This document shows, piece after piece, positions 10,699 through 48,280 of a stretch of 48,280 nucleotides of DNA. Source of the stretch: Limisphaerales bacterium (GTDB lineage Bacteria > Verrucomicrobiota > Verrucomicrobiia > Limisphaerales > UBA11358); contig PLHK01000126.1 of assembly GCA_003139955.1 (NCBI GenBank), positions 3,099 to 51,378 of the forward strand. Direction: 5' to 3'. Position numbers and translations under genes: made by a program. Below the pieces are notes generated by a model that was not told where the DNA came from, made no database searches, and saw only the letters and a program-made list of their open reading frames with translations. How positions within the stretch are numbered: the first letter of the stretch is position 1; every line of letters begins with the position of its first letter.

Positions 10699-10800
10699 TT
10701 ACTTTTTGGGCGGCCCCAAACGCTTCAACGCCCAACTGGAGAGCAAGGCGATGCCGAAGGTGCCCACAATCAAATAGACGAACACTTTCAGCTCGTTCAT
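10699..10800 (-). CDS. 33-residue membrane mini-protein between kdpC and kdpD
   Basis: An ATG-started frame of 33 codons beginning MNELKVFVYLIVGTFGIALL and ending RLGPPKK. It has one predicted transmembrane helix of about 18 residues, followed by a basic tail, so the C-terminus would face the cytoplasm. It lies in the 197-bp gap between kdpC and kdpD, 58 bp after kdpC and 37 bp before kdpD, on the same strand. The length and design are similar to KdpF, but a separate kdpF exists at 15292-15375. It could be a second small subunit, a KdpD regulator peptide, or an unrelated small protein. I recognise no family. Confidence 0.65.
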   Translation of the reverse strand: MNELKVFVYLIVGTFGIALLSSWALKRLGPPKK

Positions 10801-10858
10801 GGATTTAGTTTCGCAGTGATGTGCCGGTTGCGCACATGAATGAAATTTTTGCGTAAAA

Positions 10859-11449: not shown

Positions 11450-11452
11450 AAA

Positions 11453-23275: not shown

Positions 23276-23282
23276 GTTGCCG

Positions 23283-28528: not shown

Positions 28529-29947
28529 TCAGGGCTGCTCGTCATCCGTCCGAAACGGCGAGGCGGGCAGCCCTTCTTCATTGAACAAATTTACGTCCGG
28601 CGCTTTGGCCCAGCCGTAACGCACGGCGGCAGGCAATTTAATTTCGTCGCTCCAGACCACGACGGTTTTGCCTTTGATCTCCGCTTTGGCCGGAACAAAT
28701 TTTTTGTCCGCGCTGGCGATGGTGAATCCTCTAAGTTCGCCGCCGTTGGCCACCAGTCCGCCATCGGTGTGCGTGAACGAAATCACCGCCCGGTCGCCCT
28801 CGATTTTCATTTTTTTGAACAGCGGGCCGGAATATTCGATTTTTTCGCCGTAAGCCAGCGCACGCGCCGCCAGTGCAAGCCGTTCGCCGACCGGAGCTTT
28901 TTGCGCCGGATGCATGTCATTCGCGTCGCCGATGTCCGCCGTGCCGATCATCGCCGTGTTCTTGGTTTTTTTCAGCGTCAGCAATTGCGCCTCGCGGATC
29001 TCCGGCGTCCAATACTTGCTCGGCGCGATCTGGACAAACAAAAACGGAAAATCACCCAGTCCCCAGCCCTGCCGCCAGTCGTCTATGAGCAACGGAAACA
29101 GCTCGCGATATTGCCGGCCACGGTCGCAGTTCGACTCGCCCTGATACCAGATGACGCCCTTGATCGGGAACGCTTGCAGCGGCGCGATCATGGCGTTGTA
29201 AAGCACCGCCAAGCTAGCTGCATTGTAGGGAGGATTCCATAGAATCTGCGGGCGAAAATCGTTCATCGTCTTGAGCGCCGACGCGCTCGTCCAAGACTCG
29301 GCCGGCGTGCCGCCCCAGGCGGAAAATAAAATTCCCACCGGCACTTTTTCGGCCTGATGCAGGGCGCGCGCAAAAAAGAAACCGACGGCGGAAAAATCCG
29401 GCGCGGTCTGCGGCGAACAAACAACCCAGTTGCCGCCGGCATCGGTGGTGGGCGTGGCCGAAAGATGTTCCGGCACATAAAATTCGTGGATGTCGGGAAA
29501 ATTTGCCGTCGCCGCCGCTTCCCGCCAGCCGATAATCTCCGGCTGAGGTGGACGTGGGCCAAGCTGGCGTTCCATGTTCGACTGGCCGCTCGCCACCCAA
29601 ACATCGCCCACAAGCAAATTGGTGAAGGTGCAGGTTGTGTCGCCCTGAATGGTCAAGGTTTGCGGTGTGGCATCGGCTTGCATCGGCTCAAGCCAGACTT
29701 TCCAAAGACCGTTGGTCGCGATGGTCGTCGCGGTTTGCCCGGCGAAGGTCACGGTGATTTTCTCGCCGCTGGTGGCCGTTCCCCAAACCGGCACCCGCAC
29801 GCCGCGCTGCAACACGCAGTTGTCGGCGAACAAACTGTTGGGCTTGACCTCGGCGTGGGCGGCAAAGGTCAGTAGCAATAATGAAAACAAAAGCCCCGAC
29901 CGGATATGGAATGGTGCGATTCGTAATTTTTTTGATTTCACAGTCAT
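28529..29947 (-). CDS. SGNH-type sialate O-acetylesterase family protein, secreted
   Basis: A 472-residue protein with a signal peptide (SGLLFSLLLLTFAAHAEVKP). It matches the SASA/CE20-like family: DVWVASGQSNMERQLG with the catalytic Ser near residue 123, GVIWYQGESNCDRGRQYREL, and the Asp-His pair in DANDMHPAQK. A split N-terminal jelly-roll (VPVWGTATSGEKITVTFAGQ) is usual. In plant-polysaccharide loci these enzymes remove acetyl groups from xylose or other sugars; sialic acid activity is not implied. The listed upstream TTG (29953) would overlap GH78, but the ATG at 29947, 2 bp behind the GH78 stop, is more likely. It is the last gene of the 11-gene operon. Confidence 0.88.
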   Translation of the reverse strand: MTVKSKKLRIAPFHIRSGLLFSLLLLTFAAHAEVKPNSLFADNCVLQRGVRVPVWGTATSGEKITVTFAGQTATTIATNGLWKVWLEPMQADATPQTLTIQGDTTCTFTNLLVGDVWVASGQSNMERQLGPRPPQPEIIGWREAAATANFPDIHEFYVPEHLSATPTTDAGGNWVVCSPQTAPDFSAVGFFFARALHQAEKVPVGILFSAWGGTPAESWTSASALKTMNDFRPQILWNPPYNAASLAVLYNAMIAPLQAFPIKGVIWYQGESNCDRGRQYRELFPLLIDDWRQGWGLGDFPFLFVQIAPSKYWTPEIREAQLLTLKKTKNTAMIGTADIGDANDMHPAQKAPVGERLALAARALAYGEKIEYSGPLFKKMKIEGDRAVISFTHTDGGLVANGGELRGFTIASADKKFVPAKAEIKGKTVVVWSDEIKLPAAVRYGWAKAPDVNLFNEEGLPASPFRTDDEQP

Positions 29948-29949
29948 GG

Positions 29950-32900
29950 TCAAAAGATTATTGAGTCGGCTGGCTGCCCGGACAGGTCGGCGATGAACTT
30001 GTAGTTTCCAGAGCCGACAGCATAGACGGCCACGCCATTTTCGATTCGCAGAAATTTCACACCTTTGGCTTGCGCGGCGGGTTTTCCGGATTCCTTGACG
30101 GAGTTTTTGTCTGTAGTCGGAATATAAACCGTCGCAGTCGTGTTCGCAGGAATCGTGGCATTGAGCGTGAATTGTCCGCCTTCAATTTTCCAGTTGCTGA
30201 CAATTTTTCCATGCGCGGAATCATAGCTGCCGCGCGCCCAAGTCAGGCCGGTAGCCAGATCGGGCTGCGGCGCGAGGATGAATTTTTTGAAACCCGGCCC
30301 GGCGGGATCGGGGCGGATGCCGAGGACGGATTGATGAAGCCATAATCCAATCGCACCGCCGCACGACGGCATCTGCGCGTCAGCGCCTTCCCAGTTTTCG
30401 CCGAAAACGCCGTCATGCATCAACGTTTTCCAGCCTGGGTAATCCTGCTGGTTGACCATTTTATTGGCGAGCACCGTTTCCCGGTTGTCGGTCAGGAAAT
30501 GCATCAGCCAGGGCAATCCGACAAAGCCGGTGCCTTGGTGATCTTGGTGCGCATGAATCGAGTCAAGGAGACGTTGATAAGTCAGCGCGCGTTGCGCCGG
30601 TGGCACGACATCCAGTTCCAGCGGCAGCAATTGGGTAGTCTCGCAGTCCGGCTGGTTGTTATACAGGCCGGTGGCGGGATTAAGGTATTTTTGGTTGAAG
30701 CGATTCTTCACCTCCTCGGCGACAGCAGCATATTTGGCCGCGTCGTCCGGTTTGCCAAGTATGGCCGCCGTCTGGCTGACGATGCTGGCGTAATACGCCC
30801 ACGCCGGCATATCCATGAGCGGAGCGGGCACGACCAGCCGATTGCCATACGGATTCTGCCAGTCGCCGGCGCCCAGCCAGCTCAAGATGCCTTCCTTGGC
30901 TTCAGGCGAATTGGTGTCCCCCGTGTTCAGATAGGGATAATCATCCCAATTGCGCACCGAGCCGCTGGCGACAAATTCTCCAAGAAAATCAACATAACGG
31001 CGCATGGCGTCGTAGCTCTCGGCGAGCATCCGGCGGTCGCCGTAGAATTCATAATGCTGCCACGGTACCAGCACAATCACGCCGTCCCACCACGGCGAGT
31101 TCCAGCCGTATTCCTGACGGCCCACGAGCGGCACGACTGAACCGAGGTAGCCGGATTCATCCTGGCCGTCGCCGAAGTCGTGCCACCATTTCCGATAAAT
31201 GCCCGACACGTCGGTCAGATACGCCGCCGTCTCCAACATATTCTGCGCGTCCTGCGTCCAGCCTTGTTTTTCGCGCATCGGATCCATCGGCTGGTCGCCG
31301 TCGTAATTCAGGTGCGTGCGCAGGTCAACGTCATAAAGCTTGTTCAACCACGGACTGGAAGTCTCAAAGGTGCTGGTCCGTTTCAAGTCGGCGTGAACCA
31401 ACAAAATTCTTACGTCATTCGTCGAAAGTGGCTCGGTCAATCCCTGCACCTCGACATCCAGTGGACCGGAGAGATACATGAAACGCGGCTGCAAGACAGC
31501 CGGGCCGTTGGTCGCCAGCACAAAGATCATTTGCGGCGTGTCATAACTCGGCGCGTGGCCGAGAATCCGGATTTGCTGGCCGGCGTGGCCGTTGACTTTA
31601 ACTTGCGGCCAGCCGACGCTCAAGTTTTTGAAATAGGCATGGTTGCCCTGCACCCGTTCCGGCGTGAGTTCGCCAACCACGCGGATGGGCGGACCCATGG
31701 GCGCAACGAGCTGGCCGCCCAGCGAAGTCGTGATCGCGACGGAACGCCAGTCGGAATCATCATAGCCGGGAAGATCCCAACCCGGCTTCGCCACGGTGCG
31801 GTTTTCGATATACAAATTGAAGATGTCGTTATAAACAATTTCGCTGCGCGACCATTTCCAGGATTCATCCGAGTTGATGGTCTGGTGCGTGCCATCGGCA
31901 AACTCGATTTCGGTTTGGATCAACACACGCGGCGGCCCGTTGCCGCCATGCCGTTCGCCAAAGCCACGTCCGGGCGGACTGTGAAATCCGTTGCCCAGCG
32001 TTGCGCCGATGACGTTCTCGCCGTTGGTCAACAGCGCAGTGACATCGCGCGTCATATAAACCGTCCGCTTCGTATAATCGGTGAACGGCGGTCCCAGCAC
32101 ATCGTCCGACACCGGTCGGCCGTTAATCGTAACATCGGCCATTCCAAGCGCGGCCACATAAAGCGTCGCGCGTTTGACCGGCTGCGAAATTGTAAATGAT
32201 TTGCGCAGCAGCGGTGCGGTCGGCACCGGACACGCATCCGGCGGCTCCTGGTTGCCTTCGCCGAACGATGGCATACCGTCCACCAACTCCACCGCGTGAC
32301 CGTAATTCCATTGGGTGCCGAGCTCACGCGTGGGCCGCATCAACGCGACATTTGTTCCGCCGGACATGACTTCCATCTGCCGCACTACGGCATGGGTTGG
32401 CGTGTCGCTCGGCCCGTCATGATAAGGGCGTAACATTGGGTTGCCGGTCGCCGACGGATCAACGACCCAAAGCCGGATGCGACGCGCCTTGACGCCGTGC
32501 AACACAAATTCCCGCACCGCGAAACCCTGCGGGCCGAGCGCGACCGGCGGTTGATCGGCGGCACTCATGTCCACGAGCACTTGCGGGTTGGAAAACTGAA
32601 TGTCGTCCGCGCCCAAAATCTTGAACCGCTTCGGCTCGGAATTCGGATCGGCAAAATAAAGTTTGATCGAGTCAATCGGCAGCGACGCGCCCAAATCCAC
32701 GTCCGCCCAGCCGCCGGGCGAAACGACCAGTCCGCGCGGCTGGAGGCTGGGCTGCATATACCAGCGCGACGGCGTGATCCATTTCGCCGTCCAATCTTCC
32801 GGCTGCAACAAGCCCATCGTCCACGAAGCCGCCAGACTCCAATTGGAAACTTTGTCGTTCTGATCCCACACGCGCACCTTCCAGAAACAACGTTCGCGCG

Positions 32901-33282
32901 AAACCAACGGCGCACCGGCATAAGGCACATAAAGATTTTCATCGGAAACCACCTTGCCGCTGTCCCAGAGATCACCTTTATTTTTTGCGAGCAGCTCTGG
33001 CGTCGAGGCGACGAGAATTTGATAAGCCGTCTGACGCACGCCGCGTTCGGTGGAAGCCCAAGACTGGCTGACGGTCGGAACATATATATCATATTGAAGG
33101 AAATTTGGCTCCCCCGGAATAATTTCCCAACTCAATTGCGGCTGAACCGCGTCAATCCCGATTGGCTCGGAAAGATACTCGCAGCGCAATTTAGTCGCCG
33201 AGGCTGCCGGCAAGCTGGTCACGACGGCCAAAAGCGCGGCGGCGAGGAGAATTTTTTTAAGTGTTTGAATGTTTGTGCTCAT
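29950..33282 (-). CDS. Alpha-L-rhamnosidase, GH78, with inserted discoidin-like domain
   Basis: A 1110-residue secreted GH78 (signal LLAAALLAVVTSLPAASA). The N-terminal beta-sandwich has LRCEYLSEPIGIDAVQPQLS and RQTAYQILVAS. Between ~180 and ~350 there is an extra segment (GGWADVDLGASLPIDSIKLY, RIRLWVVDP) that looks like an F5/8 type C (discoidin) sugar-binding domain. This insertion largely explains the greater length compared with the 922-residue paralogue. The catalytic domain signature is PMDPMREKQGWTQDAQ, with the first Asp near residue 667. NGRPVSDDVLGPPFTDYTKR and the C-terminal GSGNYKF match the first GH78. It starts with a 4-nt overlap on GH39. Confidence 0.92.
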   Translation of the reverse strand: MSTNIQTLKKILLAAALLAVVTSLPAASATKLRCEYLSEPIGIDAVQPQLSWEIIPGEPNFLQYDIYVPTVSQSWASTERGVRQTAYQILVASTPELLAKNKGDLWDSGKVVSDENLYVPYAGAPLVSRERCFWKVRVWDQNDKVSNWSLAASWTMGLLQPEDWTAKWITPSRWYMQPSLQPRGLVVSPGGWADVDLGASLPIDSIKLYFADPNSEPKRFKILGADDIQFSNPQVLVDMSAADQPPVALGPQGFAVREFVLHGVKARRIRLWVVDPSATGNPMLRPYHDGPSDTPTHAVVRQMEVMSGGTNVALMRPTRELGTQWNYGHAVELVDGMPSFGEGNQEPPDACPVPTAPLLRKSFTISQPVKRATLYVAALGMADVTINGRPVSDDVLGPPFTDYTKRTVYMTRDVTALLTNGENVIGATLGNGFHSPPGRGFGERHGGNGPPRVLIQTEIEFADGTHQTINSDESWKWSRSEIVYNDIFNLYIENRTVAKPGWDLPGYDDSDWRSVAITTSLGGQLVAPMGPPIRVVGELTPERVQGNHAYFKNLSVGWPQVKVNGHAGQQIRILGHAPSYDTPQMIFVLATNGPAVLQPRFMYLSGPLDVEVQGLTEPLSTNDVRILLVHADLKRTSTFETSSPWLNKLYDVDLRTHLNYDGDQPMDPMREKQGWTQDAQNMLETAAYLTDVSGIYRKWWHDFGDGQDESGYLGSVVPLVGRQEYGWNSPWWDGVIVLVPWQHYEFYGDRRMLAESYDAMRRYVDFLGEFVASGSVRNWDDYPYLNTGDTNSPEAKEGILSWLGAGDWQNPYGNRLVVPAPLMDMPAWAYYASIVSQTAAILGKPDDAAKYAAVAEEVKNRFNQKYLNPATGLYNNQPDCETTQLLPLELDVVPPAQRALTYQRLLDSIHAHQDHQGTGFVGLPWLMHFLTDNRETVLANKMVNQQDYPGWKTLMHDGVFGENWEGADAQMPSCGGAIGLWLHQSVLGIRPDPAGPGFKKFILAPQPDLATGLTWARGSYDSAHGKIVSNWKIEGGQFTLNATIPANTTATVYIPTTDKNSVKESGKPAAQAKGVKFLRIENGVAVYAVGSGNYKFIADLSGQPADSIIF

Positions 33283-34868
33283 AAAATTTCACGGATCAAA
33301 ACCACGCTCCACGGTTCGACGGTTCGTTCGAGGCTGAACCGCCCTGCCGCGTCGGCGGAAAAATGTTCCTGCCTTGTCGCGGCGGCCTGCTCGCGCAGAA
33401 GCTTGGTTTGCTCACGGGTTATATTTTCCAGACTACCAAGCGACTCCCAAACCGCAAGCGCGTTGCCATTTTTTTTGTCGAGCGTCTCGACCAGAATGTT
33501 CGCGCCGGGTTTCAAACCCGTAAGTTCAATTTTCAAAAGCTCCGGCGCACCGAGCGCCAGCGTCGCATACGCTTGATTGCGCGAATCAAACGACGCCAGT
33601 ACCGTGTGCGGCATTTCCGGCGGATAATGATACGCGATGGCGGAAATTTTTTTGGTTTTGGAATCGCGCGTCACGATGCCGCCGGGAAATTTTCCAAGCA
33701 GTTCGTCGCCCAGCGCGTTCATAAAGCGATACGCGTGGAACACCGGCTTGACGATGCCCTGCAAATTGATCATGCCGAAGCCGCCGTGGAAAATCGTGTC
33801 GCCGCCGCCGTTTTCCTCGAACACGTCGGTGAACGTCCAATATGAAAGCGAATCCACGCAGCCGATGGATTCGAGATTCGCCTTCGTCACATACGTCGCC
33901 GCTTGCAAAAAATCGTGCGTGAAATCGCGCGGCGACGAACTGGAGCTCCATTCCGTGAGATGAATTTCCGCCTGCGGAAACGGGCTTTCGGCAACGATTT
34001 TTTTTATGAGCGCCAGATCGCGCGGCGTCGCGCCGACTTCGCGGGTGTTCTTCTTAAATTCGCCCGGCGTGTGTTCGTCGAGCGCCCAGTCGGTCGGATA
34101 CGGATGCACCGAGACAAAATCAACTGGCAGATTCTCGCGCTGGCAGAAGGCGAGAAAATCTTTCACCCACACAGGCTGCCAGTCGAGCACGTTGATGTCC
34201 TTCGCGCCGGTCACGACTTTGTGCTGCGAAAAATCCTCTGTCTCGCCGGTGAATCGCGCGTCGGGAACATAGTTGCTCGTGGCCGGGCCGCCGACGCGGA
34301 GTTGCGGATCAATTTCCTTCAGCACGCGCGCAGTGGTTTTGTAGAGTTCAAAATACTGGCTCTTCGTGCCGCGAAAAAACGGATGCAGATTCGGCTCATT
34401 CCATATTTCAAAAAACCAGGTGCGCACTTCCGCGCTGCCGTAGCGCACAATCCAGTGTTGCATCGTGCGGCGGATCAGTTCGCCCCATTTCACGAAATCC
34501 TTTGGCGGCGCGCCGTTGGCCTTCCACCAAAACACCGTGCCGGTTTCGCTCGCCAAATCCTTCGGGCAAAAACCGAATTCAACGAACGGCTTGATGCCGA
34601 TCTCCAGCAACTTGTCGAACAGGATGTCCACATATTGAAAATTGTAAATCGCGCGGCCTTTTTCTTCGCGATAGACAAACATGTCGTCGTGGTAAAGGCC
34701 GTGGAACCGAATGTATTTGAAGCCACATTCCTTTACGGCGAGGCGTAACTGTTCCTGCCAGTCGGCGCGCAGGCCTTCGTTCGCGCGGCCCGCGCCGACG
34801 CAAAAATTCCAAAAATGTTTCAACGGTGTGCCGGCGGCGGTGGCGGTGGCTTTGAGTTCGATGGGCAT
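33279..34868 (-). CDS. GH39 beta-xylosidase-like glycosidase, cytoplasmic
   Basis: A 529-residue GH39 enzyme without signal peptide. The (beta/alpha)8 barrel has the acid/base Glu158 in FFEIWNEPNL and the nucleophile Glu306 in IHLTEWSSSS. YIRFHGLYHDDMFVY and DFVSVHPYPTDW are also typical of GH39. Known activities are beta-xylosidase and, less often, alpha-L-iduronidase or arabinosidase. A C-terminal beta-sandwich follows from about residue 410. The stop overlaps the downstream GH78 start by 4 nt. It presumably processes imported xylo-oligosaccharides. Exact substrate is inferred. Confidence 0.9.
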   Translation of the reverse strand: MPIELKATATAAGTPLKHFWNFCVGAGRANEGLRADWQEQLRLAVKECGFKYIRFHGLYHDDMFVYREEKGRAIYNFQYVDILFDKLLEIGIKPFVEFGFCPKDLASETGTVFWWKANGAPPKDFVKWGELIRRTMQHWIVRYGSAEVRTWFFEIWNEPNLHPFFRGTKSQYFELYKTTARVLKEIDPQLRVGGPATSNYVPDARFTGETEDFSQHKVVTGAKDINVLDWQPVWVKDFLAFCQRENLPVDFVSVHPYPTDWALDEHTPGEFKKNTREVGATPRDLALIKKIVAESPFPQAEIHLTEWSSSSSPRDFTHDFLQAATYVTKANLESIGCVDSLSYWTFTDVFEENGGGDTIFHGGFGMINLQGIVKPVFHAYRFMNALGDELLGKFPGGIVTRDSKTKKISAIAYHYPPEMPHTVLASFDSRNQAYATLALGAPELLKIELTGLKPGANILVETLDKKNGNALAVWESLGSLENITREQTKLLREQAAATRQEHFSADAAGRFSLERTVEPWSVVLIREIL

Positions 34869-34878: not shown

Positions 34879-36009
34879 CTAATAAGCTACGGTTTGCTCC
34901 GTCCACGTCGGGCCGGTGATGGAAAATTTTCCGTTGGCAAAATGCAGCGGCTCGATGCCGAGTTGCGGCGCAGTGTCGTAAAATTCGGGAATCAAACTTC
35001 CGGGAACCGGCTGCTTGCCTTCGAGAAAATAATGGCAGCAAATCCAGTCCTTGCCGTCCGGCCCTTCAAACACCGCGTTGTGCCCGACTTCAACATACGG
35101 ATCGGGCGTGTCAGCAAACTTCAGGTCAGCGTAGCTGCCCTGCTCCATCTGTTTCTCGCGATAATGCCGCTTGCGCGTGCCAAAGATCGGCTCGCGCTCG
35201 GTGAGCGTCCACGGGCCAAGCGGCGTCGGCGCGCGCAGCACGCCGATCTCATAACCACGCGTCCACGACGAAAAGAACATGAAATATGTTCCGTCGCGCT
35301 TCAGGACAAACGGCGCTTCAATGCCGCCGATCATCCAATAAGGATTGCCAGCGTCGCGCGGCGACAGGAATTTTTTCAATTCGCCATCCACCAATTTGCC
35401 GGTCGGCAGATCAATCTTCGCCTGCCACAAACCGCCGGCGCTGCAATACAAATAACTTTGCCCGTCGTCATCGGTAAAAAGATTTGCGTCGTTCTTGAAG
35501 CCGGTGCTTAATGGTCCGCGCACCAGTTTGTATTCGCCGTCAATTTTATCCGCGACGAAAAGCCAGATGTTATGGTCGTCCATCAATCGGTCGCCGGACT
35601 GCGGGCCGCGATGGCCGCTATTGACCGTGAGCCAGAACTTACCTAGCGCCCGATGAATTTGTGGTGCCCAAAACCGACCTTTGTAAGGACAGTCCGCCTC
35701 CAGCTTGGTCGCATCAATCAGCCACGCGCATTGCCGCCAATGCAGCAAATCGTCGGACACCAACAGCCGCACGCCGGGATTCGGCCCGCTCCAGACGGGC
35801 ATTGACGTGCCGGTCATGAACCATTGCCGGCCCACCTTAAGGATGAACTGGTCGCGCATCGCGAGTGCCGGATCGCGCGTGATGGGATTGGTGTAGCGAA
35901 AAACTTTTACCACGATTCTCGGAGCTGGAACATCAGCCGCATATGACAAACTCGCGATAAATATCATCGCTCCAAATGTCAAAAGACGGGCTGGAATCGG
36001 GACACTCAT
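34879..36009 (-). CDS. GH43-family glycosidase, secreted
   Basis: A 376-residue five-bladed beta-propeller glycosidase with a signal peptide (LLTFGAMIFIASLSYAADVP). GH43-type features are NPITRDPALAMRDQFILKVG (catalytic-base region), KGRFWAPQIHRALGKFWLT, YLYCSAGGLWQ, GGIEAPFVLKRDGTYFMFFS (acid-Glu region) and VGHNAVFEGPDGKDWICCHY. Possible activities are arabinofuranosidase, xylosidase or a related exo-enzyme. It starts with a 4-nt overlap on the symporter stop and lies 10 bp before GH39. The subfamily cannot be fixed by eye. Confidence 0.85.
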   Translation of the reverse strand: MSVPIPARLLTFGAMIFIASLSYAADVPAPRIVVKVFRYTNPITRDPALAMRDQFILKVGRQWFMTGTSMPVWSGPNPGVRLLVSDDLLHWRQCAWLIDATKLEADCPYKGRFWAPQIHRALGKFWLTVNSGHRGPQSGDRLMDDHNIWLFVADKIDGEYKLVRGPLSTGFKNDANLFTDDDGQSYLYCSAGGLWQAKIDLPTGKLVDGELKKFLSPRDAGNPYWMIGGIEAPFVLKRDGTYFMFFSSWTRGYEIGVLRAPTPLGPWTLTEREPIFGTRKRHYREKQMEQGSYADLKFADTPDPYVEVGHNAVFEGPDGKDWICCHYFLEGKQPVPGSLIPEFYDTAPQLGIEPLHFANGKFSITGPTWTEQTVAY

Positions 36010-37796
36010 GTTGCTTTGGTAGGTGAATTTTTTGCATCAGCTTCCGATTTCGCCTTGCGCTTGGCGGCAACCCATAGCATCCAGCCGACCATGAACATCA
36101 CGCCGCCGCAAAATAGAAACGCCAACCGGCCGCTGAAACGATTCGGAATCGCGGTGAGCAACAGAATAAAAACGCCATACACCAGACACAACGCACCGAG
36201 CATTTTGTAAACGGCCGTCTGCACACCTTCGACGCCGTGTTTGTCCACCGGCGTGTGCAGATTGGTGAAGAATTTATCAATGCGCTCCTGCTCAGCAACG
36301 GGCGCAGATTGGTAAAACAAGCTCGTGAAGAAATACCATCCTGAACCGACAATGACAGTGCCACCCAGCGTCGTGACCGCGAGTTTGAGATAGGTTTTTT
36401 CATCGCCATTCAGCGGAACCGTCCAGCCCATCCATTGCTGAACGGATTCCGGGGTGATTATGTAATTGCCGAGCAGATACGACGCCGCGCCCGCGACCAG
36501 CGCCGTGCTCCACGCGGACCAGCCGGGCGTGCGTTTATAAAACAAACCGAAGATGAGCGGCAACGCCAGCGGCATCAGCAAATAGGATGCGAGCTGGTTC
36601 ACGAAGTCGAAAAGATTCGTCTGCCGGATGCTGTTGATAAAAAGTCCGAGCACGATGATGATCGCGCCAAAGATCAGCGTGCAAATTTTTCCGGCCACCA
36701 GCAGATGTTTTTCGGAAGCGTTCGGATTAAACAACGGCTTGTAAAGGCTGCGGATGGTGATGCCGACGTTTTTATTCAAGCCGGCGTCCATGCTCGTCAC
36801 GGTCGCGCCCAGCATGGCGGAAAGCAGCAAGCCGAGCAGGCCCTGCGGCATCACGTCCATCGCCACGGCCAAAAAAGCAGCTTCGTGCGGCTGTTTTAGA
36901 TTCGGAAATTCCGCCGCAAGATTCGGATGCATGATGGTCGCCGCCATTGAGGGAATGAACCAGACCAGCGGCCCGACGAGCGTGCCGATAAGCGGAATCA
37001 ACACCATGCGCCGCGCGTCCTTGTCGCTACGGGTCATGAGATACATCGTCGAACGCTCCATATTGTTTTCGTCCGAAAATTTCAACCACAGGTTGCCGAT
37101 GATCCAAATGAAAATAATTTCCGGTCGGGCCAGTTCGCCCCAGTGAAAATGCGCGGACGGAACTTTGTTTAAGAGTCCGTGCAGACCGCCAATTTCCGGG
37201 CGCGCGAGCACCATAATGGCCGTCGTCAGCGTGATCGTGACGATGAGGAATGCCTGAACAAAATCGCTCGCCAGCACCGCCCACGAACCACCCGCAAACG
37301 CTACGAGCGTCACCACCACGCCGAGCACGATCAGCATGGTGTTCATGTCAATTTTGAATACCGCCGACATAAAAACCCCGATGGCGTTCAACCCCACGCC
37401 AGCGAACAGCAGCAGCAGCGGCAGTTTGATCCAAGTGTAAAACTGCTCCGTGAACGGCCCGTAGCGCAGCCGCACCGCTTCCATCCAGGTGATGACACGC
37501 ATCCGGCGGAAGCGCAGGCTGGTGACGGCCAACGCCACGCACAGCGCGACTGCCGTCGCATAAAAAACCACCAGCACCAGCGGGCCGGACTCATAAACTT
37601 TTCCCGCCGCACCGGTGAACGTCCACGCGCTGAAGCTGAAAATCCACGCCGACGTGCCCGTGATCCACCACGGCATCGCCCCACCCGCGCGAAAATAATC
37701 CGACGTGTCCTTGCTCATCCGCCGAAACGCCAGCCCGATGGCCAGCATGAACAGCAGGTAAAACCCGATGATGAAATAATCGTATTGGGTGATCAT
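36006..37796 (-). CDS. Sodium:solute symporter (SSS family)
   Basis: A 596-residue inner-membrane transporter with about 13-14 helices, of the SSS/SGLT family. It begins DYFIIGFYLLFMLAIGLAFR followed by TSDYFRAGGAMPWWITGTSA, and includes SFSAWTFTGAAGKVYESG and the family signature around GLLGLLLSAMLGATVTSMDA. It should import a sugar or uronic acid with sodium. It is the only transporter in the locus, so it is the likely route for released monosaccharides. Both ends overlap neighbours by 4 nt (serine hydrolase upstream, GH43 downstream). The cytoplasmic tail is basic and Ala/Lys-rich. Confidence 0.92.
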   Translation of the reverse strand: MITQYDYFIIGFYLLFMLAIGLAFRRMSKDTSDYFRAGGAMPWWITGTSAWIFSFSAWTFTGAAGKVYESGPLVLVVFYATAVALCVALAVTSLRFRRMRVITWMEAVRLRYGPFTEQFYTWIKLPLLLLFAGVGLNAIGVFMSAVFKIDMNTMLIVLGVVVTLVAFAGGSWAVLASDFVQAFLIVTITLTTAIMVLARPEIGGLHGLLNKVPSAHFHWGELARPEIIFIWIIGNLWLKFSDENNMERSTMYLMTRSDKDARRMVLIPLIGTLVGPLVWFIPSMAATIMHPNLAAEFPNLKQPHEAAFLAVAMDVMPQGLLGLLLSAMLGATVTSMDAGLNKNVGITIRSLYKPLFNPNASEKHLLVAGKICTLIFGAIIIVLGLFINSIRQTNLFDFVNQLASYLLMPLALPLIFGLFYKRTPGWSAWSTALVAGAASYLLGNYIITPESVQQWMGWTVPLNGDEKTYLKLAVTTLGGTVIVGSGWYFFTSLFYQSAPVAEQERIDKFFTNLHTPVDKHGVEGVQTAVYKMLGALCLVYGVFILLLTAIPNRFSGRLAFLFCGGVMFMVGWMLWVAAKRKAKSEADAKNSPTKAT

Positions 37797-38917
37797 TTTT
37801 CCGCGCTGGAATTTTGACTCTCGGACAGCGCCGCCCGAACCATCGGGACCAGCACTGGACTGGAATAAAAGCCTGAAAAATTTTCGCGCTTCGCCACCTC
37901 AAGTTCCACATGGGCGATGAGAAAACCATAGACCCCGCTCGTCTTGTCAATCCACGGATAAGCGCCCGCCCAACTCGGACTGCTGATCAATGTCGCATTG
38001 CCGCTGGCATCCAGTTCTTCGCGCCATTCACCAAGCCCATAGATGCCGTGGTGCGTCGCGCCCCGCACCCGCTGGACAAATTCACCCGGCTTCACCCGCG
38101 CGCCGCGAACCTGATCCGCCTGCATCTCGCGGATGGCATTTTCGGACAGCACGCGTTTTCCCGCAAACACGCCGCCGTTGAAAATCATCGAAAGAAAATT
38201 CGCGTAATCACGCAACGTGCTCCGCGCACCGCCGCCAAGCATTGGGTTATGTCCTTCGCCGGCATCCACCGGCTTGAAATGCGTGTCCGTCATGCCGCAT
38301 GGTCCGGCAATCCGCTCCTGAAACAGCGTCTCCCAATCTTTGCCCGCCGCCACTTCCGCCATGCGTCCGGCCACCTGCATCGCCAGACCGCCGTAATTAA
38401 AACGCGCGCCGGGCGCGTAATCCAACGGCAACGGCAAAAGCTGCGCGACGGATTCAGTCAAAGTCTGGTAATGATCAACCGGATTGTCGGCGGGCTGGTA
38501 AGACGGATAACCGGATGTGTGGGACAGTAATTGGCGCAGCGTGGCCTTGTCTTTGGGATCATCTTTAAATTCCGGTAGCCAGCGGGACGGATGATCGTCC
38601 AAAGACAATTTGCCTTCGTCCACGACCGACATGATGGTCGCCGCCGCCAGCCATTTTCCCGCCGACGCGATGAACACCGGAGTTTCCGGCGTGTAGCTGC
38701 CAAACGATTTTTCGTAGATCACTCGATTATCCTTGGCCACCAACAGCGCCGCGCCGGGATAATAACCTTCATCCACCCAGCCTTGAATCAATTTGGTGAC
38801 GGAAGAAAAATCAATATTCGTCGGCGCAGCAAAACCCACAACAGTGCACAGCCACAAGCTAACCACCGGCAAACAACCTCGCCAGTTCCTGAAAAAATTC
38901 GGAGAGAAATGTTTCAT
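37793..38917 (-). CDS. Secreted serine hydrolase, class C beta-lactamase fold (2)
   Basis: A 374-residue paralogue of the protein at 22196-23275. It has a signal peptide (LPVVSLWLCTVVGFAAPTNI). SxxK is Ser85-Ala-Gly-Lys88, YGG occurs in RFNYGGLAMQ, and GIYGLGEWREELDASGNA matches the other copy. A diagnostic shared stretch is GKRVLSENAIREMQADQV here versus GQRVLSATAIREMEADQI there. The start at 38989 would lie inside the GH43 gene; the ATG at 38917 overlaps its stop by 4 nt and gives a normal signal peptide. Probably an esterase acting on the same polysaccharide, but the substrate is unknown. Confidence 0.86.
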   Translation of the reverse strand: MKHFSPNFFRNWRGCLPVVSLWLCTVVGFAAPTNIDFSSVTKLIQGWVDEGYYPGAALLVAKDNRVIYEKSFGSYTPETPVFIASAGKWLAAATIMSVVDEGKLSLDDHPSRWLPEFKDDPKDKATLRQLLSHTSGYPSYQPADNPVDHYQTLTESVAQLLPLPLDYAPGARFNYGGLAMQVAGRMAEVAAGKDWETLFQERIAGPCGMTDTHFKPVDAGEGHNPMLGGGARSTLRDYANFLSMIFNGGVFAGKRVLSENAIREMQADQVRGARVKPGEFVQRVRGATHHGIYGLGEWREELDASGNATLISSPSWAGAYPWIDKTSGVYGFLIAHVELEVAKRENFSGFYSSPVLVPMVRAALSESQNSSAEK

Positions 38918-40506
38918 GCGGTCTTCGGGCAATAATCGAAATAGTCGAAATCCGTATTTAATTTTCCCCCGCCGACATCTTGCGCGCACAAGCCGACCAT
39001 CGCGCCGGTGAAATGCAAACCCGCGCCGTAATCATCAGACAGTTTCGTGGCGTCCAAAACCGGCCCAATTTCCCGCCAGTTTTTCCCGTCCGGCGACGCG
39101 CTGAATTGCAGCTTTTGAAAATCAACTTCGGCGCGCAGAAAAATTTGCTTCCAATCGTTGATCACAATTTCACTGTCAGTCAGTTCGTCATAAACTCCGT
39201 CGTCCGTCAGCGTGACCCCGAGAATTTTTCCGCGCGCGTCATCGTGCGTCACGCGCAGGTAAAAATGCGTCCGCGTGTCGTAATAACAAATCAGCCCGGC
39301 ACTTTGCGTAAAATTTTTCGGTGAAAATTCAAAGCAGGTTTCGGCGGTGAATCTGAAATGCTGGACGCGCCGCGCAATCAGGCTCTGGTCGAATAGCGAG
39401 TGCTGCGAATCGCGTCCGCGCAACCGCAGCCAGCCGGGTCGCGCTTTGAGCGAAAGCCAGGAATCATCCGGCGGCACGCGGAGTGAACTCCAGCGCAAAT
39501 CAAGTTTTTCGGAATCAAAATGGTCGCGCTCTGGCAGCACCAGCCACGGATGCGACGGCAGATTTTTGGGCGTGGAAATCTCCAATTGCGGTTTTGTTCC
39601 GCCTGTCGCATGCCGCAACCAACCGTCGCGCCACTCGACTTTTTGCAGACATGTTTCGCGGCCAAGGATGCAGCGCCGCTGATCGCCTTCACCGAGCGGA
39701 CGGCTGGCGAGATGCGCGAGATACCATTCGCCGGATGGCGTCTGGACAATTTCGCCGTGACCGGCTTTTTGCAAAGTCAATTTCGCGTCGTCGCGCGACG
39801 TGAGGACGGACTTCTGTGGATCAAGTTCGTAGGGGCCGAGAATTTTTTTTGCGCGCGCCATCGCGATACCGTGATTCCAGCCCGTGCCGCCTTCGGCGAG
39901 CATGAGATAATACCAGCCGTCCTGTTTGTAAATGTTCGGGCCTTCGATGAGGACGCCGGGTTTCTCCAGGATTTTCGTCTGCGGCCCGACGAGCCGGCGC
40001 TGCTGCGGGTCGTATTCTTGAACGACGATGCCCGCGAAGCGCTGGCGGTTTTTGCGGAAATCCCATTCCAGATTCACAAGCCATTTGCGTCCGGCGTCGT
40101 CGTGAAACAGTGACGGATCAAAACCGACGGAATTTAATTCAACAGGTTCCGACCACGGTCCAAGCATGTCCGGCGCGGTCGTCAAAAAAATTTCCAGATC
40201 CTTGAACGGCCGGCCCATACCGGTGTTGCGGACGTTGGTGTAAATGAGCCAGAATTTTCCGTCCGCGAAACTCAACGACGGCGCCCAGACGCCGCCGGAA
40301 TCCGGCACGCCGCGCAGATCAAGTTGCGAGCGGCGCGTGAGCGCGTGGCCGATGAGCCGCCATTTCGCGAGATCTCGCGAATGATGGATCGGCACGCCGG
40401 GAAACCATTCGAACGTCGAGCTGGCGATATAATAATCTTCGCCGACGCGGCAGATGCTCGGGTCGGGGAAAAATCCGGGCAAAATTGGATTTTGAATCTG
40501 GCTCAT
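38914..40506 (-). CDS. GH43 beta-xylosidase-type enzyme, cytoplasmic
   Basis: A 530-residue GH43 with the two-domain architecture of XynB-type xylosidases. The N-terminal five-bladed propeller begins NPILPGFFPDPSICRVGEDY (catalytic base Asp15), then YIASSTFEWFPGVPIHHSRD, GGVWAPSLSFADGKFWLIYT and LIEGPNIYKQDGWYYLMLAE with the catalytic acid Glu. From ~330 a concanavalin-like beta-sandwich follows (FTAETCFEFSPKNFTQSAGL, YYDTRTHFYLRVTHDD). There is no signal peptide, so it works on imported xylo-oligosaccharides. It has a 4-nt overlap with the serine hydrolase and a 4-bp gap to the upstream propeller gene. Confidence 0.93.
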   Translation of the reverse strand: MSQIQNPILPGFFPDPSICRVGEDYYIASSTFEWFPGVPIHHSRDLAKWRLIGHALTRRSQLDLRGVPDSGGVWAPSLSFADGKFWLIYTNVRNTGMGRPFKDLEIFLTTAPDMLGPWSEPVELNSVGFDPSLFHDDAGRKWLVNLEWDFRKNRQRFAGIVVQEYDPQQRRLVGPQTKILEKPGVLIEGPNIYKQDGWYYLMLAEGGTGWNHGIAMARAKKILGPYELDPQKSVLTSRDDAKLTLQKAGHGEIVQTPSGEWYLAHLASRPLGEGDQRRCILGRETCLQKVEWRDGWLRHATGGTKPQLEISTPKNLPSHPWLVLPERDHFDSEKLDLRWSSLRVPPDDSWLSLKARPGWLRLRGRDSQHSLFDQSLIARRVQHFRFTAETCFEFSPKNFTQSAGLICYYDTRTHFYLRVTHDDARGKILGVTLTDDGVYDELTDSEIVINDWKQIFLRAEVDFQKLQFSASPDGKNWREIGPVLDATKLSDDYGAGLHFTGAMVGLCAQDVGGGKLNTDFDYFDYCPKTA

Positions 40507-41410: not shown

Positions 41411-43087
41411 CTAGGCAGCCGGCGTTTTCGTGATGAAAAAACTTTGCGCCACCGGCGCGGCGGACTGCAATTTCGGCGCGGTTGTGCGTCCCCATTGCCA
41501 GGCCACGACGGTGACTTTCACCGGAAATTTTGCGCGTGGCGGAATTTTTGTGAATTGAATCGTGTCGCCCGCGATTTCCGCCGGGCCTTCGCGGACGTAA
41601 TAATAAACTTTCGCGCCGGAATCCGAAGTCGCGTTGAGCGTGACGGATTTCGTTCCAACCAGAACGTCGGCGATGGCCGGAAACGTGATGCGTTGCGGCG
41701 CGCCTTCGGTTTGCGGCACGGGAATTTTCAGCAACGCCTGCTCGACCGCGCTTTTATATTTTGCATCGCCCGGATGGCTCGCGAGCAGCCAGATGTCGCC
41801 GATGCGAAAATCCATCGGTATACTAGAGCGGTTGAACCGCACCGCAAACGTGTCGGGCGCAGTCTGGATCACCGGCCCGACAATGCGCGACAAGACAACT
41901 GGCCCGCCGCCGCTCGCGTGCGTCAGCGCCGCGCCAACGGGTAATCCCGTCCACATCGTCGGCCTCGGTCCGGGCGGCACAGTGTCGAGAAAAACACCGG
42001 CCAGCTTGAACGTCAGCGTGTCATCCAGCACCGGCGTTTTGAGCCGGACCTGTTCGTGCGATGGCGGAACAGTCTGGGGCATGATCTGGCCATCCTGCTC
42101 GAAGCCGACAAGCTGTGGCAACTTGCCGAACTGCGGATTAAAATTTTCCGAGGCGCGCGCCATTTCCTCGTCGAAGCACCAAAACGCCTCGTTCGTGTTG
42201 CCGCTGTATTTTGCAAAAGGAGCGGCAGCGGCGTGCGGTTTTTCATTGCGGTGCCAGCGATCCATCAGCCAGCCGTCGCGCGCATCAACCGGTTTCAGTT
42301 TGACGAATTGATTGGTGGGTGCGTCCGCCGGCAGCCGTTGTTCCACCGCCTTGCGGATAAACAGCGCAAGGTAACGCACCAGTTCGTCAGAGTAATCAAA
42401 ATGACCGTGGCCGACGTCGCACAGCAACGCAAGCGGCGCGTCCGGGTGCCGCGCGCGAAAGGCTACGGCGGACGTGATGCGATCTTCCCACCATTCGTAT
42501 TCGCCGACGACCATCAGGCCGGGAATGCCTTCAATATTCCGCGCGCCCCAGTCCACATTCGGACGACCGTTGCCGACGCGATCCGTCTGCGGCGCATCGC
42601 CGTGGACGGATAAAATCGCCAGCGTGCGCTCCGGATTCCACGCGGCGAAGTTCCACGGAAAACTCGCCATCGCCGAATGGCCGATGGGAATGACCGGCGC
42701 AAATTCCAGTTCGCCGTAGCCGGATTCATCGGCGAGCTGTTTCAACAGCGCGGAAAATTTTTTATTCGCGCTGTCGTTGTTGGTCGCGTCCTGCCAATTG
42801 TCAAATCCCGGCGCGATGTAAAGTTCCGCGAGGCCGAGTCGGGCCATCGCCGCGCGAAATTCGGGATGTTCCAAGATTCCCGGCTCGATCATGTTGTTCT
42901 GCCCGAATACGACGGCGCGGACGCGCTGGCAATCCGGCGGAATCCACAAAAACGCGCGCGAATGCGCCGACGAATTTCGCGGCGCATTCGCGGCCAGCTC
43001 CACCGACCATTGCCAATCCGCGGCCCGTATGGGCAACGCCGACAGGAATCCCGCGCACAGAAAAAATATGAACCGGAGCGACCTCAT
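41411..43087 (-). CDS. Secreted alpha/beta hydrolase (probable carbohydrate esterase)
   Basis: A 558-residue protein with signal peptide ([20 protein letters not shown]). An alpha/beta hydrolase fold follows: [17 protein letters not shown] with nucleophile Ser138 in GHSAM, an acid-loop region ([13 protein letters not shown]) and a likely catalytic His in [13 protein letters not shown]. The C-terminal ~200 residues form beta-rich domains ([20 protein letters not shown]) of Ig- or CBM-like type. Such proteins occur in Bacteroidetes and Verrucomicrobia loci, but I cannot name the CE family. The ATG at 43087 overlaps the GH95 stop by 4 nt; an upstream ATG at 43099 is less likely. Confidence 0.8.
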
Positions 43088-45504
43088 TTTCCGTCCCATT
43101 GGAAACTGCGGTCGGGTTTGAGCTTGATGTTTTTCTCAACCGCACCGTAGCGTAGATGCGCCACTTTGCCGTTGATGGAACGGATGGTGGCGGAAGTCAA
43201 TTTCCCGTCCTGCCACGCGAAATCCACTTCGAATCCGCCACGCGCGCGCAAACCTTTGACGCTGCCGTTCGGCCACGCTTTCGGAAGCGCGGGCAGAAAT
43301 TGGATTTCGCCGTTCTGGCTTTGCAGCAACATTTCCATGATGCCGGCCGCGCCGCCGAAATTGCCGTCAATCTGGAACGGCGGATGCGCGTCGAACAAAT
43401 TTGGATAAACTCCGCCGCCGCCCGCGCCATATTGAACATTTTGGCCGTGAACGGGATTGAGCAGCAGCGTCAAAATTTTGTAAGCGTGTTCGGCTTCGTG
43501 CAGCCGCGCCCAGAGATTCAGCCGCCAGGCCATGCCCCAGCCGGTGGTTTCGTCGGTGCGAATCTCCAGCGATTTTTTTACGGCGGCGGCGAGTGCGGGC
43601 GTCGTGTTCATGTCAATCTGCGCGCTCGGATACAAACCGTAAAGATGCGAGACGTGGCGGTGATGAATATCCGGCGCTTGCAAATCAAAATCCTCCTGCC
43701 ATTCCTGCAACTGGCCGGCTTGGCCAATTTTGGACGGCGCGAGCCGCGCGCGCGCAGCCGCGACTTGCGCGCGAAATTCCTTGTCTGTGCCAAGCGTTTC
43801 CGATGCAGTGATGCACTCCGCAAACAAATCTCGCAGAATCTGCATATCCATCGTCGGCCCGGCGCAAACGGTGACACCATCGCGATACGAATGCTCCGGC
43901 GACATGGAGGGATTGGTCACGAGCCAGTGCGTGTTCGGGTCTTCGACGAGCGTATCGAGAAAAAATTGCGCCGAACCTTTAAGCAACGGATAAATCTGCT
44001 TGAGATAATTTTCATCCGCGCTGAACAGGTAATGTTCCCACAACGTCTGGCACAACCACGCGCCGCCGGTCGGCCATAAGCCCCAGGAACCGTCAATCGG
44101 CGCGGACGCGCGCCACAGATCCGTGTTGTGATGGACGACCCAGCCGTGCGCGCCATACATTTCCTGCGCCGTGTGCGCGCCGGTCTCGCTCAAGTCCGTG
44201 ATCATCGCCTGGAGCGGCTCGACGCATTCGCCGAGATTGGCGGCTTCAGCAGGCCAGTAATTCATCTCGGTGTTGATGTTGATTGTGTATTTGCTTTCCC
44301 ACGGCGGCGTCATGGACTCGTTCCAAAGTCCTTGCAAGTTGGCCGGCTGACCGCCGGGACGCGAACAGGAGATCAAAAGATAACGGGCGTATTGATAATA
44401 CAACACCGCGAGTTGCGGGTCGTGACCTTCGGCAAAATGATCGAGACGCTCGGTGGTCGGCAATTTCGCGGCGTCGCCGCTGTCACCGAGATTTAATTCG
44501 ACGCGGCGGAATAATTTCTGGTGCGCGGCGATGTGGTTGGTGAGCAGTTGCTGATACACATCCTTATTCAATTCTTCAATGGGAATAGGATGTAATAAAA
44601 CAGGAAACGCCTTATTCAAAGCGACGGAGATCTGATTTTTAACAATGGCCGCCGGATCGCCGCTGACATCGTGATAATTTTTATAGCTCGTGGCGGCGGC
44701 GATGAGCAATGTGACGGCATTCGCATTGGCCACGGAAACCGTGTTGGCCGTGGCTGTGGTCTTACCGCGATCCGCCATGACCAACACACGCGCCTGAAAT
44801 TTCAACGCGCCCTTGATGCCGCTGGCGTCACCGTTCACACCGCTCATCACCAGCGTGTCGCCGGATTCAACCGTCACGCTCGCGTTCTGCGGCGTGGTCA
44901 TGCCGGCGGTGAAGGAGATTTGTCCCGGCTTGTCCGCCGTGAGGTGAACGACGATGACTTGATCCGGCGCGCTGGAAAAAACTTCGCGGGTGAACGTCAC
45001 GCCGTTGGCCGTGAAGGTGGTCGTGGCCACGGCGGTGTCGAGGTTCAGATCGCGCCGATAATTTTCCACAGAGCTGACCGCCGGAAAATCGAGGAACAGA
45101 TCGCCCACGGTTTCATACGGCATCTGACCGATCGGCTTGGCCAGAACCTTTGCGGTGATGAGATTTGCCGCCGCGGCAAATTTTCCGGCGAAGATAAGCT
45201 GGCGCACGGCGGGCAACGCGGCCTGCGCGTCGGGATTCACCGGATTATACGGGCCGCCCGCCCAGAGCGTGTCTTCGTTGAGTTGCAGGCGTTCGCGGTT
45301 TACGCCGCCAAAAACCATCGCGCCGAGCCGGCCATTGCCGACGGGCAACGCTTCCGTCCACTCGCGCGCTGGCTGGCGATACCACAGACTCAACGGCTCG
45401 ACCGGCGCGGATGCTGCGCCAATAAAATTAATTTCCGCCGAATGCAGCGGGTTGAAAGTGCTGGCGACAAAAATCGCGGAAGCAAAAATCGTTTTGATGG
45501 TCAT
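43084..45504 (-). CDS. Alpha-L-fucosidase-type glycosidase, GH95, secreted
   Basis: An 806-residue GH95 protein with a signal peptide ([20 protein letters not shown]). Typical features: [82 protein letters not shown] with the active-site Asn, and [19 protein letters not shown] with the conserved Asp. GH95 inverts alpha-1,2-linked L-fucose, or L-galactose in some plant polymers. It is the second gene of the 11-gene operon, 5 bp behind the unrecognised 795-residue gene. The length matches the family. Confidence 0.93.
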
Positions 45505-45509: not shown

Positions 45510-47897
45510 TTATTTACCGAACCACAGCACCACTGTCGAGCGCGGAAGCACTTTCACCGGCGCGTCCAATTTGAGCACGGTTTTGGAAACGAGTTCGCGC
45601 GCCTCGGCCACGCCCGGCGGTGGCGTCAATTGAAATGTCCGATCCGGCGTCATGTTCATGCCGATGAGATAATCGCCGTAGCGCAGCGTGTAAAAATCGC
45701 CCTTGCCGGCGTAGGCGTTTTCATCGCCGGGTTTGAATTGCACGCCGGCAGGAATTTTTGCGATGGGCAGGCGTTCGCCGAGCATGGCCGAATGTAATTT
45801 CACCGGATACGCCGGACCGCCCCAAAGATAATCGGCGGCGGTCCAATCGGGGCGGGTATAAAATTTTCCGCTCGGAGTGAATTCCGTTTCTTCCTGCACG
45901 ACGGCGATGCGGTCAATCTGCGGCGTCGTGAAATGGACGCGCGCCAGATTGTTGATGGCGTAACGCGCGCGCCAGTAAAGCGAGGCGCAAAGGATTTCAT
46001 CGCCGTTCTTGATGGCGACGACGCCGTCCTCCTCGTCGCTGAAAACAAAATCCGGCTGGCCCGGCGTCATCGGCAAGCGCGCGGTTTGCGGCGGCTGCGC
46101 CTTGAGCACCGCGTAATCATCCGGCACGCCCAGCAATCCCGCCGTCACGCGGAACATATCATATTGCTTCATGTGCTGCTTGAGCGTGGAAAAAAACTGG
46201 TTGTCCGCGAACATTTGCTGCGCATAACCGATGGCCTGCGGATCCAGCGTGGCGGCGGCGTAGCCCAGCGACGAACCGTCCCACGTCAGGCGTTGCGCGT
46301 AGGCGATGTCGCCGGGATAATGATCACCGTCGCGCCAGCCGACGACCGTTTCGATGCGCATGGCGCGATTGGTTTCGGCGTCGAGTCCGGGATAACGGAA
46401 GACTGCGCGGGCATGAGCAATGTGAAGGAGTTGTGCGCGAATTTTTTCATCGCCGGGCTGTCCCGGCGCCGGGCGCGTCGAGTCGTAAAGCGTCGTCATC
46501 CAATCCAGCACCTCGCCGTAGTAGCCGACAAAGCCAAGCTCCTTGGTCAGCCCCTTGGCGGTCAGTTCCCAATAATTTGTGCCGACGCCCCAACTGGTGC
46601 GGCCCGTTTCCGGTGCCGTGCCGCCGCCGGGATCGCTGTCGCGCCACGGTTGCAATCCGGTGGATTCGTAAAGGTAGCGGCGAACTTCATTTTCCGGCAG
46701 CGCATTGGTCGGATCCACCACTTCCAATCCGCGATTCGCCAGATAAATTCCGTAGAGATCGTTGATCATGGATTGGTTCGAGTAGAGCCGGCGATTCCGG
46801 CGATGCCAGTCGCGGCACGCCACCAACATTTCGGAATACGCCGCGCGGCGGGAAATTTTTTTGCCCGCGCCCAGATCAATTTTCTCATCGAGATGCGGTT
46901 TCAATTCATCCGGCAACAAGCGCAACACATCGCCCGATGGCCCCAGGCCAAACCACGCCGGGTTGTAAGTCGCCGGATCGGCTTCGGCGAGATGAGGATT
47001 TTTGCGATACGCCAAAAACGTCGCGTCCAGACTGCGGAGCAATTGCCGGATCGCCGCCGCATTGTGATACGCCACCGTCCATTTGACGCGATAAGCGCGC
47101 GCGACGAATTGCATCTCCATCTGGTCAATTGGTGAAGCCGACGCGACGAGTTTTTTCAACGCGCCATTCACGCGGTCTTTGAGTTGATCCAACACTTCCG
47201 GCCCCGGCTTCTGACGAATAGTCACATTAGTCGGCGCGACACCTTGCTTATCTTCCGGCGGCGGAACAAAATAGCCGTTCGTGTGAATGTAAATTTTGTA
47301 GATGCCGCGCGACGGCTCGGTCATCAATCTTTGAAACGTATCAAACGCGTTGCCGTAAGGCCAAATCTCCCCCGAAGCACGGACTTCGAGGTTCAAGTTC
47401 GTCCGGCCACGCGTCAGCTCCAGCGGCAGCGGCGTGGTGTTGTAAAGAAATCGGCCCACAAACGCCGCGCCGTTTTCACCGCCGGTGTCGAGCGCATCAA
47501 TGTCACCAAGATACCGGTAGCCGATCTGCGCGCCGTCGCTGAAAAGCATCAGTTGATTCTGCGTCACGTCCGATCCCCAGAGCTTGATCGTGACGTAATT
47601 GATTTTGTCCGGGTCAACTTTGACGGTGAATTGCATCGTCCCGCCCTGCCACGAACGGATGATTCTCGCCGGCGTGCGCTGGCGCGCCTGCCACTGGGGA
47701 TAATTGATCGGCAGCAGCAGCCGCGCCGATTCGCCCAACGCGCCGCCCTTGATGATTTTGCTGCGCTCGCTGGTCAGATGATGTTCTTTTTCCGACGCCG
47801 AATTGCCGAACGTCAGCGTGTCCACTGCCGCAGCGGATTTGAAACTTAAAAGTGCCAGCGCAAAAAATAACGCGGCCAGCCGAAAACTGATATGCAT
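45510..47897 (-). CDS. Unrecognised secreted protein, possible toroid polysaccharide lyase/hydrolase
   Basis: A 795-residue protein with a signal peptide ([20 protein letters not shown]). I do not recognise the family. Residues ~70-215 form a beta-sandwich ([40 protein letters not shown]) resembling non-catalytic domains of toroid glycosidases. From ~235 to ~560 it is mainly helical with many aromatic, His and Asn residues ([40 protein letters not shown]), as in (alpha/alpha) toroids. The rest is beta-rich ([35 protein letters not shown]). This order resembles toroid lyases. It is first in the 11-gene operon. A start 14 codons upstream (47939) is less likely than the ATG before the signal peptide. 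Confidence 0.8.
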
Positions 47898-48175: not shown

Positions 48176-48280
48176 ATGAACCGTAACTATCAGATTGCCA
48201 GCGCCACGCAAAATTCCCAACCCGCGAACGACCGGAGCCGGAGAGGCTTCACCTTGGTTGAACTGCTGGTGGTCATCGCC
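48176..48280 (+). CDS. Prepilin-type N-terminal methylation protein (truncated by window edge)
   Basis: The first 35 codons are present. A polar leader of about 23 residues is followed by RRGFTLVELLVVIA, the type IV prepilin/type II pseudopilin cleavage site (G|F, with Glu at +5) and hydrophobic helix. It would be processed by a prepilin peptidase. Such proteins are very numerous in Verrucomicrobia and Lentisphaerae. It is divergent from the 11-gene operon; a TTGACG at 48076-48081 is a possible -35 element. The rest of the protein and its function lie beyond the window. Confidence 0.9.
   Translation, partial: MNRNYQIASATQNSQPANDRSRRGFTLVELLVVIA

Follow-up and report, generated by a model that had tools for sequence, protein, structure and literature searches.

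Several families of polysaccharide lyases are built on an (alpha/alpha) toroid, and Asn, Tyr and His have been described as their common catalytic set (PMC12088678, Table 4). In PL8, which comprises the chondroitin AC and ABC lyases and the hyaluronate lyases, the N-terminal toroid (PF08124) is joined to an antiparallel beta domain. The PL35 GAGases, which carry an Asn-Tyr-His triplet, and the PL15, PL17 and Hepar_II_III lyases likewise combine a toroid with beta structure. In PL27 enzymes a beta-sandwich precedes an (alpha/alpha)6 barrel (PMC8377490). Outside the lyases, GH127/GH146 beta-L-arabinofuranosidases end in a C-terminal DUF6805 domain (PF20620).

This study concerns a 795-aa protein encoded in a 48,280-nucleotide stretch of a Limisphaerales genome (contig PLHK01000126.1; hereafter the window). 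With a probability of about 0.73, we consider it an exported, beta-eliminating polysaccharide lyase of a new family lacking a Pfam model, with a toroid plus antiparallel beta-sheet fold, that feeds the local GH88/105 enzyme.

The protein resembles each of the described systems in part. As in PL8, a toroid is followed by an antiparallel beta domain; unlike PL8, it has no Pfam match, no aligned toroid His and an extra N-terminal DUF6805-like domain, and its gene neighbours include rhamnosidases and further enzymes of plant-glycan breakdown. Its whole catalytic module superposes on the PL35 GAGases (8khv, 8khw) and on chondroitinase 9o3q (Z 13.5-14.7 over 347-387 residues), but the rmsd is 5-6 A and no sequence similarity was detected; for the PL35 triplet, an Asn and a Tyr are proposed here and H655 is the candidate His. 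PL38 (BoPL38) and PF05426 proteins match the toroid at Z 14-14.6 but show no sequence similarity; PL38 is a toroid only, and the PF05426 proteins encoded close to the homologue in several further loci are separate proteins. The PL15, PL17 and Hepar_II_III lyases share the toroid and beta-sheet module (Z 12-14, 360-395 residues), whereas PF07940 is unmatched and the beta-domain His is here a candidate only. The DUF6805 domain of GH127/GH146 enzymes is homologous to the N-terminal domain of the protein, but their catalytic toroid has no similarity to the toroid here (hhalign score 19). Judged from the model, the protein would most likely work like the toroid lyases, yet by the sequence tests it falls outside PL8, PL35, PL38 and Hepar_II_III.

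Gene and operon

The reading frame runs on the reverse strand from an ATG at 47897 through 795 codons to a stop at 45510. A TTG at 47939 is a possible alternative start; relatives begin near the ATG, and the ambiguity at this end is at most 42 bases. A Sec-type signal peptide was recognised by eye in residues 1-24, where pLDDT is low, and in some relatives a Cys follows the hydrophobic stretch in a lipoprotein-like manner. The gene is the first of 11 same-strand genes that form a compact carbohydrate operon, in which neighbours overlap or lie no more than 10 bp apart. Their order is the 795-aa protein, GH95 (starting 5 bp later), an alpha/beta hydrolase, a propeller-like protein, GH43 with GH43_C2, a beta-lactamase-fold protein, a sodium symporter, GH43, GH39, GH78 and a SASA esterase (Table 1). 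Upstream lies a divergent, prepilin-like ORF (48176-48280) that begins GFTLVELLVVIA and is cut by the window end. The original prediction, made from the sequence alone, had described an unrecognised, secreted 795-residue protein at the head of an operon. The ORF proved real and conserved end to end, and its position is borne out by GH95, the nine further same-strand genes and the divergent upstream ORF.

Further along, beyond the operon, are GH88/105, GH3, a LacI regulator and a second GH78. The prediction had also named a GH88 gene and stated that no known lyase was recognisable in the window. The former was recovered by its Pfam domain, and none of the scanned window proteins matches a Pfam lyase family. 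In the window's genome (91.7% complete), two GH88/105 genes are present, and searches for the PL1, PL8, PL10, PL11, Hepar_II_III and alginate_lyase domains gave no match.

Two other components of the locus deserve mention. The alpha/beta-hydrolase-like protein (562 aa, predicted to be exported) represents an unnamed esterase family whose members recur beside the homologue elsewhere. The locus also encodes two proteins of beta-lactamase fold (serine hydrolases), at 37793-38989 and 22196-23341, which are possible sugar esterases.

Table 1. Positions of the features of the locus, numbered along the window.
Feature	Position	Strand	Basis
795-aa protein, three domains, putative polysaccharide lyase, predicted export	45510..47897	-	ORF, conservation, model
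Signal peptide, residues 1-24	47826..47897	-	by eye
N-terminal beta sandwich, about residues 25-210, DUF6805-homologous, CBM35-like fold	47268..47825	-	hhalign, structure match
(alpha/alpha) toroid, residues 228-600, putative catalytic domain	46098..47216	-	model, fold comparison
C-terminal antiparallel beta domain, residues 617-795	45513..46049	-	model, fold comparison
W315, invariant, on PL8 NWW aromatic patch	46953..46955	-	PL8 alignment
N374, putative carboxylate neutraliser, inner-helix start	46776..46778	-	PL8 alignment, model, joint loss
Y460 (GYYGEVLDW), putative catalytic Tyr	46518..46520	-	PL8 alignment, joint loss
R522 (GWRD), invariant, possible active-site Arg by position	46332..46334	-	conservation
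H655, nearly invariant, candidate beta-domain His of toroid lyases	45933..45935	-	inference only
GH95	43084..45504	-	Pfam
Alpha/beta-hydrolase-like esterase, GHSAMAS motif, without Pfam match	41411..43099	-	near homologue in several loci
GH43 with C-terminal GH43_C2 domain	38914..40506	-	Pfam
Sodium:solute symporter	36006..37796	-	Pfam
GH39	33279..34868	-	Pfam
GH78 alpha-L-rhamnosidase	29950..33282	-	Pfam
SASA acetylesterase, final gene of operon	28529..29953	-	Pfam, gene order
GH88/105 unsaturated uronyl hydrolase	24582..25763	+	PF07470 E 4e-13

Domain architecture and predicted fold

The full-length protein was modelled with AlphaFold2 from 42 sequences (pLDDT 88.6, pTM 0.88) and the catalytic module, residues 228-795, from 51 sequences (pLDDT 92.8, pTM 0.92). 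DSSP assignment on the model agrees with the beta / helical / beta layout that had been proposed for the protein. The N-terminal sandwich (residues 21-206) superposes on the C-terminal domain of 5opj, a beta-L-arabinofuranosidase, with Z 12.2 and 2.5 A over 125 residues. By hhalign the N-terminal domain was related to the C-terminal region of GH127-type templates (probability 98.8, E 1.4e-16, 30% identity), a region that Pfam identifies as DUF6805. The 795-aa protein itself has no DUF6805 match above the Pfam cut-off despite this profile-profile probability. This DUF6805/CBM35-like sandwich probably binds glycan.

The five best Foldseek matches of the catalytic module were three PL8 and two PL17 chains. 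Foldseek matches to PL8 included 2q1f (E 1.4e-9) and, for the module, 8fyg (E 8e-5) and 1rwa (E 2e-4). In the VIA comparison, the rows that span both toroid and beta domain (about 340-395 residues) were PL15, 17, 33, 35 and 40, chondroitinase and human dermatan sulfate epimerase; toroid-only matches were GH88, epimerases, glucoamylases and transcobalamin. VIA values of Z 14-15 at an rmsd of 4-6 A are only moderate for a helical toroid, and the transcobalamin and epimerase rows reach Z 11-14. Since Z 12-15 is moderate for such a helical fold, the fold alone would not settle function. Among the families named beforehand as possible relatives, the PL8, PL15 and PL17 lyases match the module and GH127 shares only the DUF6805 domain; PL27 is absent from the fold lists, an absence that does not exclude a relation to PL27.

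Database status and sequence relation to PL8

The protein has no match in the Pfam, NCBIfam and PDB sequence libraries, where TetR_C_32 (E 0.013) and Methyltransf_10 appeared at chance level only. A profile of 42 family sequences also remained without a match in Pfam or PDB sequences, and no PDB lyase chain matched it up to E 10. Pfam Lyase_8_N did not match the protein at E up to 10, its best scores among relatives being E 0.025 (A2) and 0.14 (A3). Neither the protein nor its relatives match Pfam Alginate_lyase (PF05426) or Hepar_II_III (PF07940; PL15/PL17/PL21). Literature searches returned no description of the family. Across the Pfam, NCBIfam and PDB sequences covered, a new family without a Pfam model is likely.

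A PL8 profile was built from relatives found in the class, and profiles were compared by hhalign in local mode. Against most PL8 masters the profile of 42 family sequences reached scores of 41-45, with 29-39 against three of them, while controls comprising nine other gene families of the loci and reversed or column-shuffled PL8 stayed at or below 23.4. With distant members added, the score against PL8 was 50-52 (E 4-8e-5, probability 60-73%), and reversed or column-shuffled PL8 scored no more than about 21. Profiles of GH28, GH78, GH88, GH95, GH127 and Hepar_II_III reached at most 24 against the catalytic module. No hhalign signal was obtained between the family and its Hepar_II_III or alginate-lyase neighbours, a null that was not counted against a relation because those profiles are shallow (Neff about 1.5). 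The sequence relation suggested between the catalytic module and PL8 is weak but controlled.

At E of about 5e-5, the alignment places Y460 on the catalytic Tyr of PL8 (YxGxYG) for all five masters, W315-F316 on the aromatic patch NWW (W315 with five masters) and N374 two residues off the catalytic Asn of TGxN. These motif assignments are the ones that we take PL8 enzymes to carry. The order of elements in the model is that of PL8: the Asn opens one helix, a helix follows, and the Tyr immediately precedes the next one. For PL8 His225 the alignment placed no counterpart in the toroid; R522 is likewise unplaced there, and no PL8 Arg was placed. H655 is kept in 39 of 41 sequences.

The N374/Y460 pair was picked from the PL8 comparison ahead of the joint-loss test. 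Both residues are missing in three of 58 sequences (L148, L152 and L168), which have K, D and D at position 374 and D, R and R at position 460. Of the 22 catalytic-module columns with conservation of 98% or more across the remaining sequences, only 374 and 460 differ in all three. Within the alignment, this joint loss singles out N374 and Y460 as a putative functional pair. All three sequences come from one genus (mutual identity 51-65%), and a single event in evolution may therefore account for the loss. Together with the fold matches of the module and the link to PL8, the joint loss supports the earlier suggestion of a candidate new toroid lyase.

The members that lack the pair (L148:1495-3867, L152:1486-3798 and L168:1495-3804) retain the other near-invariant residues, and a second copy in the genome of L168 (L147) has both N374 and Y460. 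It is possible that these divergent members are binding proteins or have a changed chemistry.

Distribution and gene neighbourhoods

A scan of genome contigs with the single protein found nothing, and a scan with the alignment found 38 loci. Full-length relatives share about 41-75% identity and usually lie beside carbohydrate enzymes; the nearest (75% identical) is conserved end to end. Eight further congeneric genomes carry relatives at 60-63% identity. Full-length relatives occur in nine of 48 other genomes of the window's genus, a patchy, accessory distribution. Across the phylum, long matches were found in about 16 of the 388 genomes sampled, the window's own included. The named loci include, within Verrucomicrobiota, uncultured Verrucomicrobia subdivision 3, Limisphaerales, Akkermansiaceae, Opitutaceae and Pontiellaceae, and outside the phylum Planctomycetota bins, Hymenobacter, Botryobacter, Caulobacter, Asticcacaulis and Duganella.

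Within the stretch retrieved for each locus, 10 other loci have a GH88/105 gene belonging to the same cluster in the vicinity of the homologue. Thirteen loci contain GH28, eight others GH43_C2, and up to 11 a TonB-dependent receptor. A Hepar_II_III lyase lies close to the homologue in eight alphaproteobacterial loci, and a PF05426 lyase domain near it in six loci from several phyla. The homologue is thus associated with uronic-acid degradation, though in some loci another lyase accompanies it. The original prediction had seen in the protein the missing chain-cleaving enzyme. None of the six lyase domains searched for was matched in the genome, but the wording exceeds the evidence: the enzyme could be exo-acting or debranching, because related loci often carry a second recognised lyase.

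Proposed function and alternative explanations

If the protein is a beta-eliminating lyase, a uronic acid would sit in subsite +1 of the toroid cleft with its carboxylate neutralised by N374, together with Q375, and Y460 would act as general acid, possibly also as base, assisted by R522 and perhaps by H655. Beta-elimination would cleave the linkage at C4 of this uronic acid. The local GH88/105 would then remove the unsaturated uronyl end, and GH78, GH95, GH43, GH39 and the esterases would trim neutral sugars. From the rhamnosidases, GH95, GH43, GH39, GH28 and esterases nearby, we infer that the substrate is an acidic heteropolysaccharide in which rhamnose occurs along with other neutral sugars, either pectin-like or an exopolysaccharide.

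Two rival readings assume a different activity. A glycoside hydrolase, with E453, E411 or another invariant acid in catalysis, would fit the invariance of E411, E453, D291 and D621 and the VIA scores of GH88, GH15 and GH76 on the toroid (Z 11-13). Those rows, however, stop short of the beta domain, the GH88, GH78, GH95 and GH127 profiles gave no signal against the catalytic module, and what the divergent subclade jointly loses is N374 and Y460, not an acid; a hydrolase is thus quite unlikely. A uronyl C5-epimerase resembling human dermatan sulfate epimerase 1 would share with a lyase the abstraction of the C5 proton, and 6hzn does span the module (Z 11.8, 394 residues). Yet the gene heads a degradative operon with GH88/105 nearby, while the known epimerases of toroid lyase fold are animal enzymes or act in biosynthesis, which makes this reading highly improbable.

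The remaining alternatives leave the lyase chemistry intact. As a sub-case of the preferred reading, the protein may be exo-acting or cap-removing, for example taking a terminal rhamnose, fucose or galactose off C4 of glucuronate as in PL27 and PL42, with chain cleavage left to a different enzyme. Rhamnose-glucuronate lyases have been described (PMC8377490), rhamnosidases (GH78, GH106) and GH95 are neighbours, and alginate_lyase- or Hepar_II_III-type lyases lie nearby in the loci of other bacteria; but none of the six lyase domains that could supply the endo step was found in the window's genome, and we hold this variant to be possible rather than probable. The protein could also belong to a PL family listed in CAZy that lacks a Pfam or NCBIfam model and a PDB structure, which would alter its novelty and leave the mechanism as proposed. 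CAZy held 43 PL families by 2024 (PMC11381880); the failure of PDB lyase chains to match the family profile and of the literature searches to find a paper on the family tells against membership, which seems unlikely.

Returning to a new lyase family, the odds are slightly better than even for a broader picture: a widespread, unlisted family that would join a glycan-binding DUF6805 domain to a PL8-like toroid in which no His is aligned, act on an acidic heteropolysaccharide and include a subclade without the catalytic residues that may serve in binding. Soil and freshwater bacteria, it appears from the predicted fold and two conserved residues, would use the putative lyase to break down acidic polysaccharides. 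With no database model, annotation pipelines overlook what is probably a chain-cutting enzyme in many loci across Verrucomicrobiota, Caulobacterales and Bacteroidota. Confirmation would add one more enzyme family and a pointer to an acidic polysaccharide used by these bacteria.

Some loci have unusual arrangements. Two family copies lie in one cluster in a Pontiellaceae locus (L102:182-2500 and 9992-12316, with a sulfatase in between) and likewise in another genome of the phylum (L145 and L167). A protein of 1893 aa (L028:7103-12781) has a first part that is distantly family-like, followed by autotransporter-like repeats. Very long proteins combining alginate_lyase with fn3/autotransporter-type repeats (L083:3480-9716, L079:3345-7322 and L092:4860-9821) are encoded immediately before the homologue or a few genes farther upstream. 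Two further neighbours, L084:12703-15555 (951 aa) and L105:19647-21425 (593 aa), are without a Pfam match at E 0.001.
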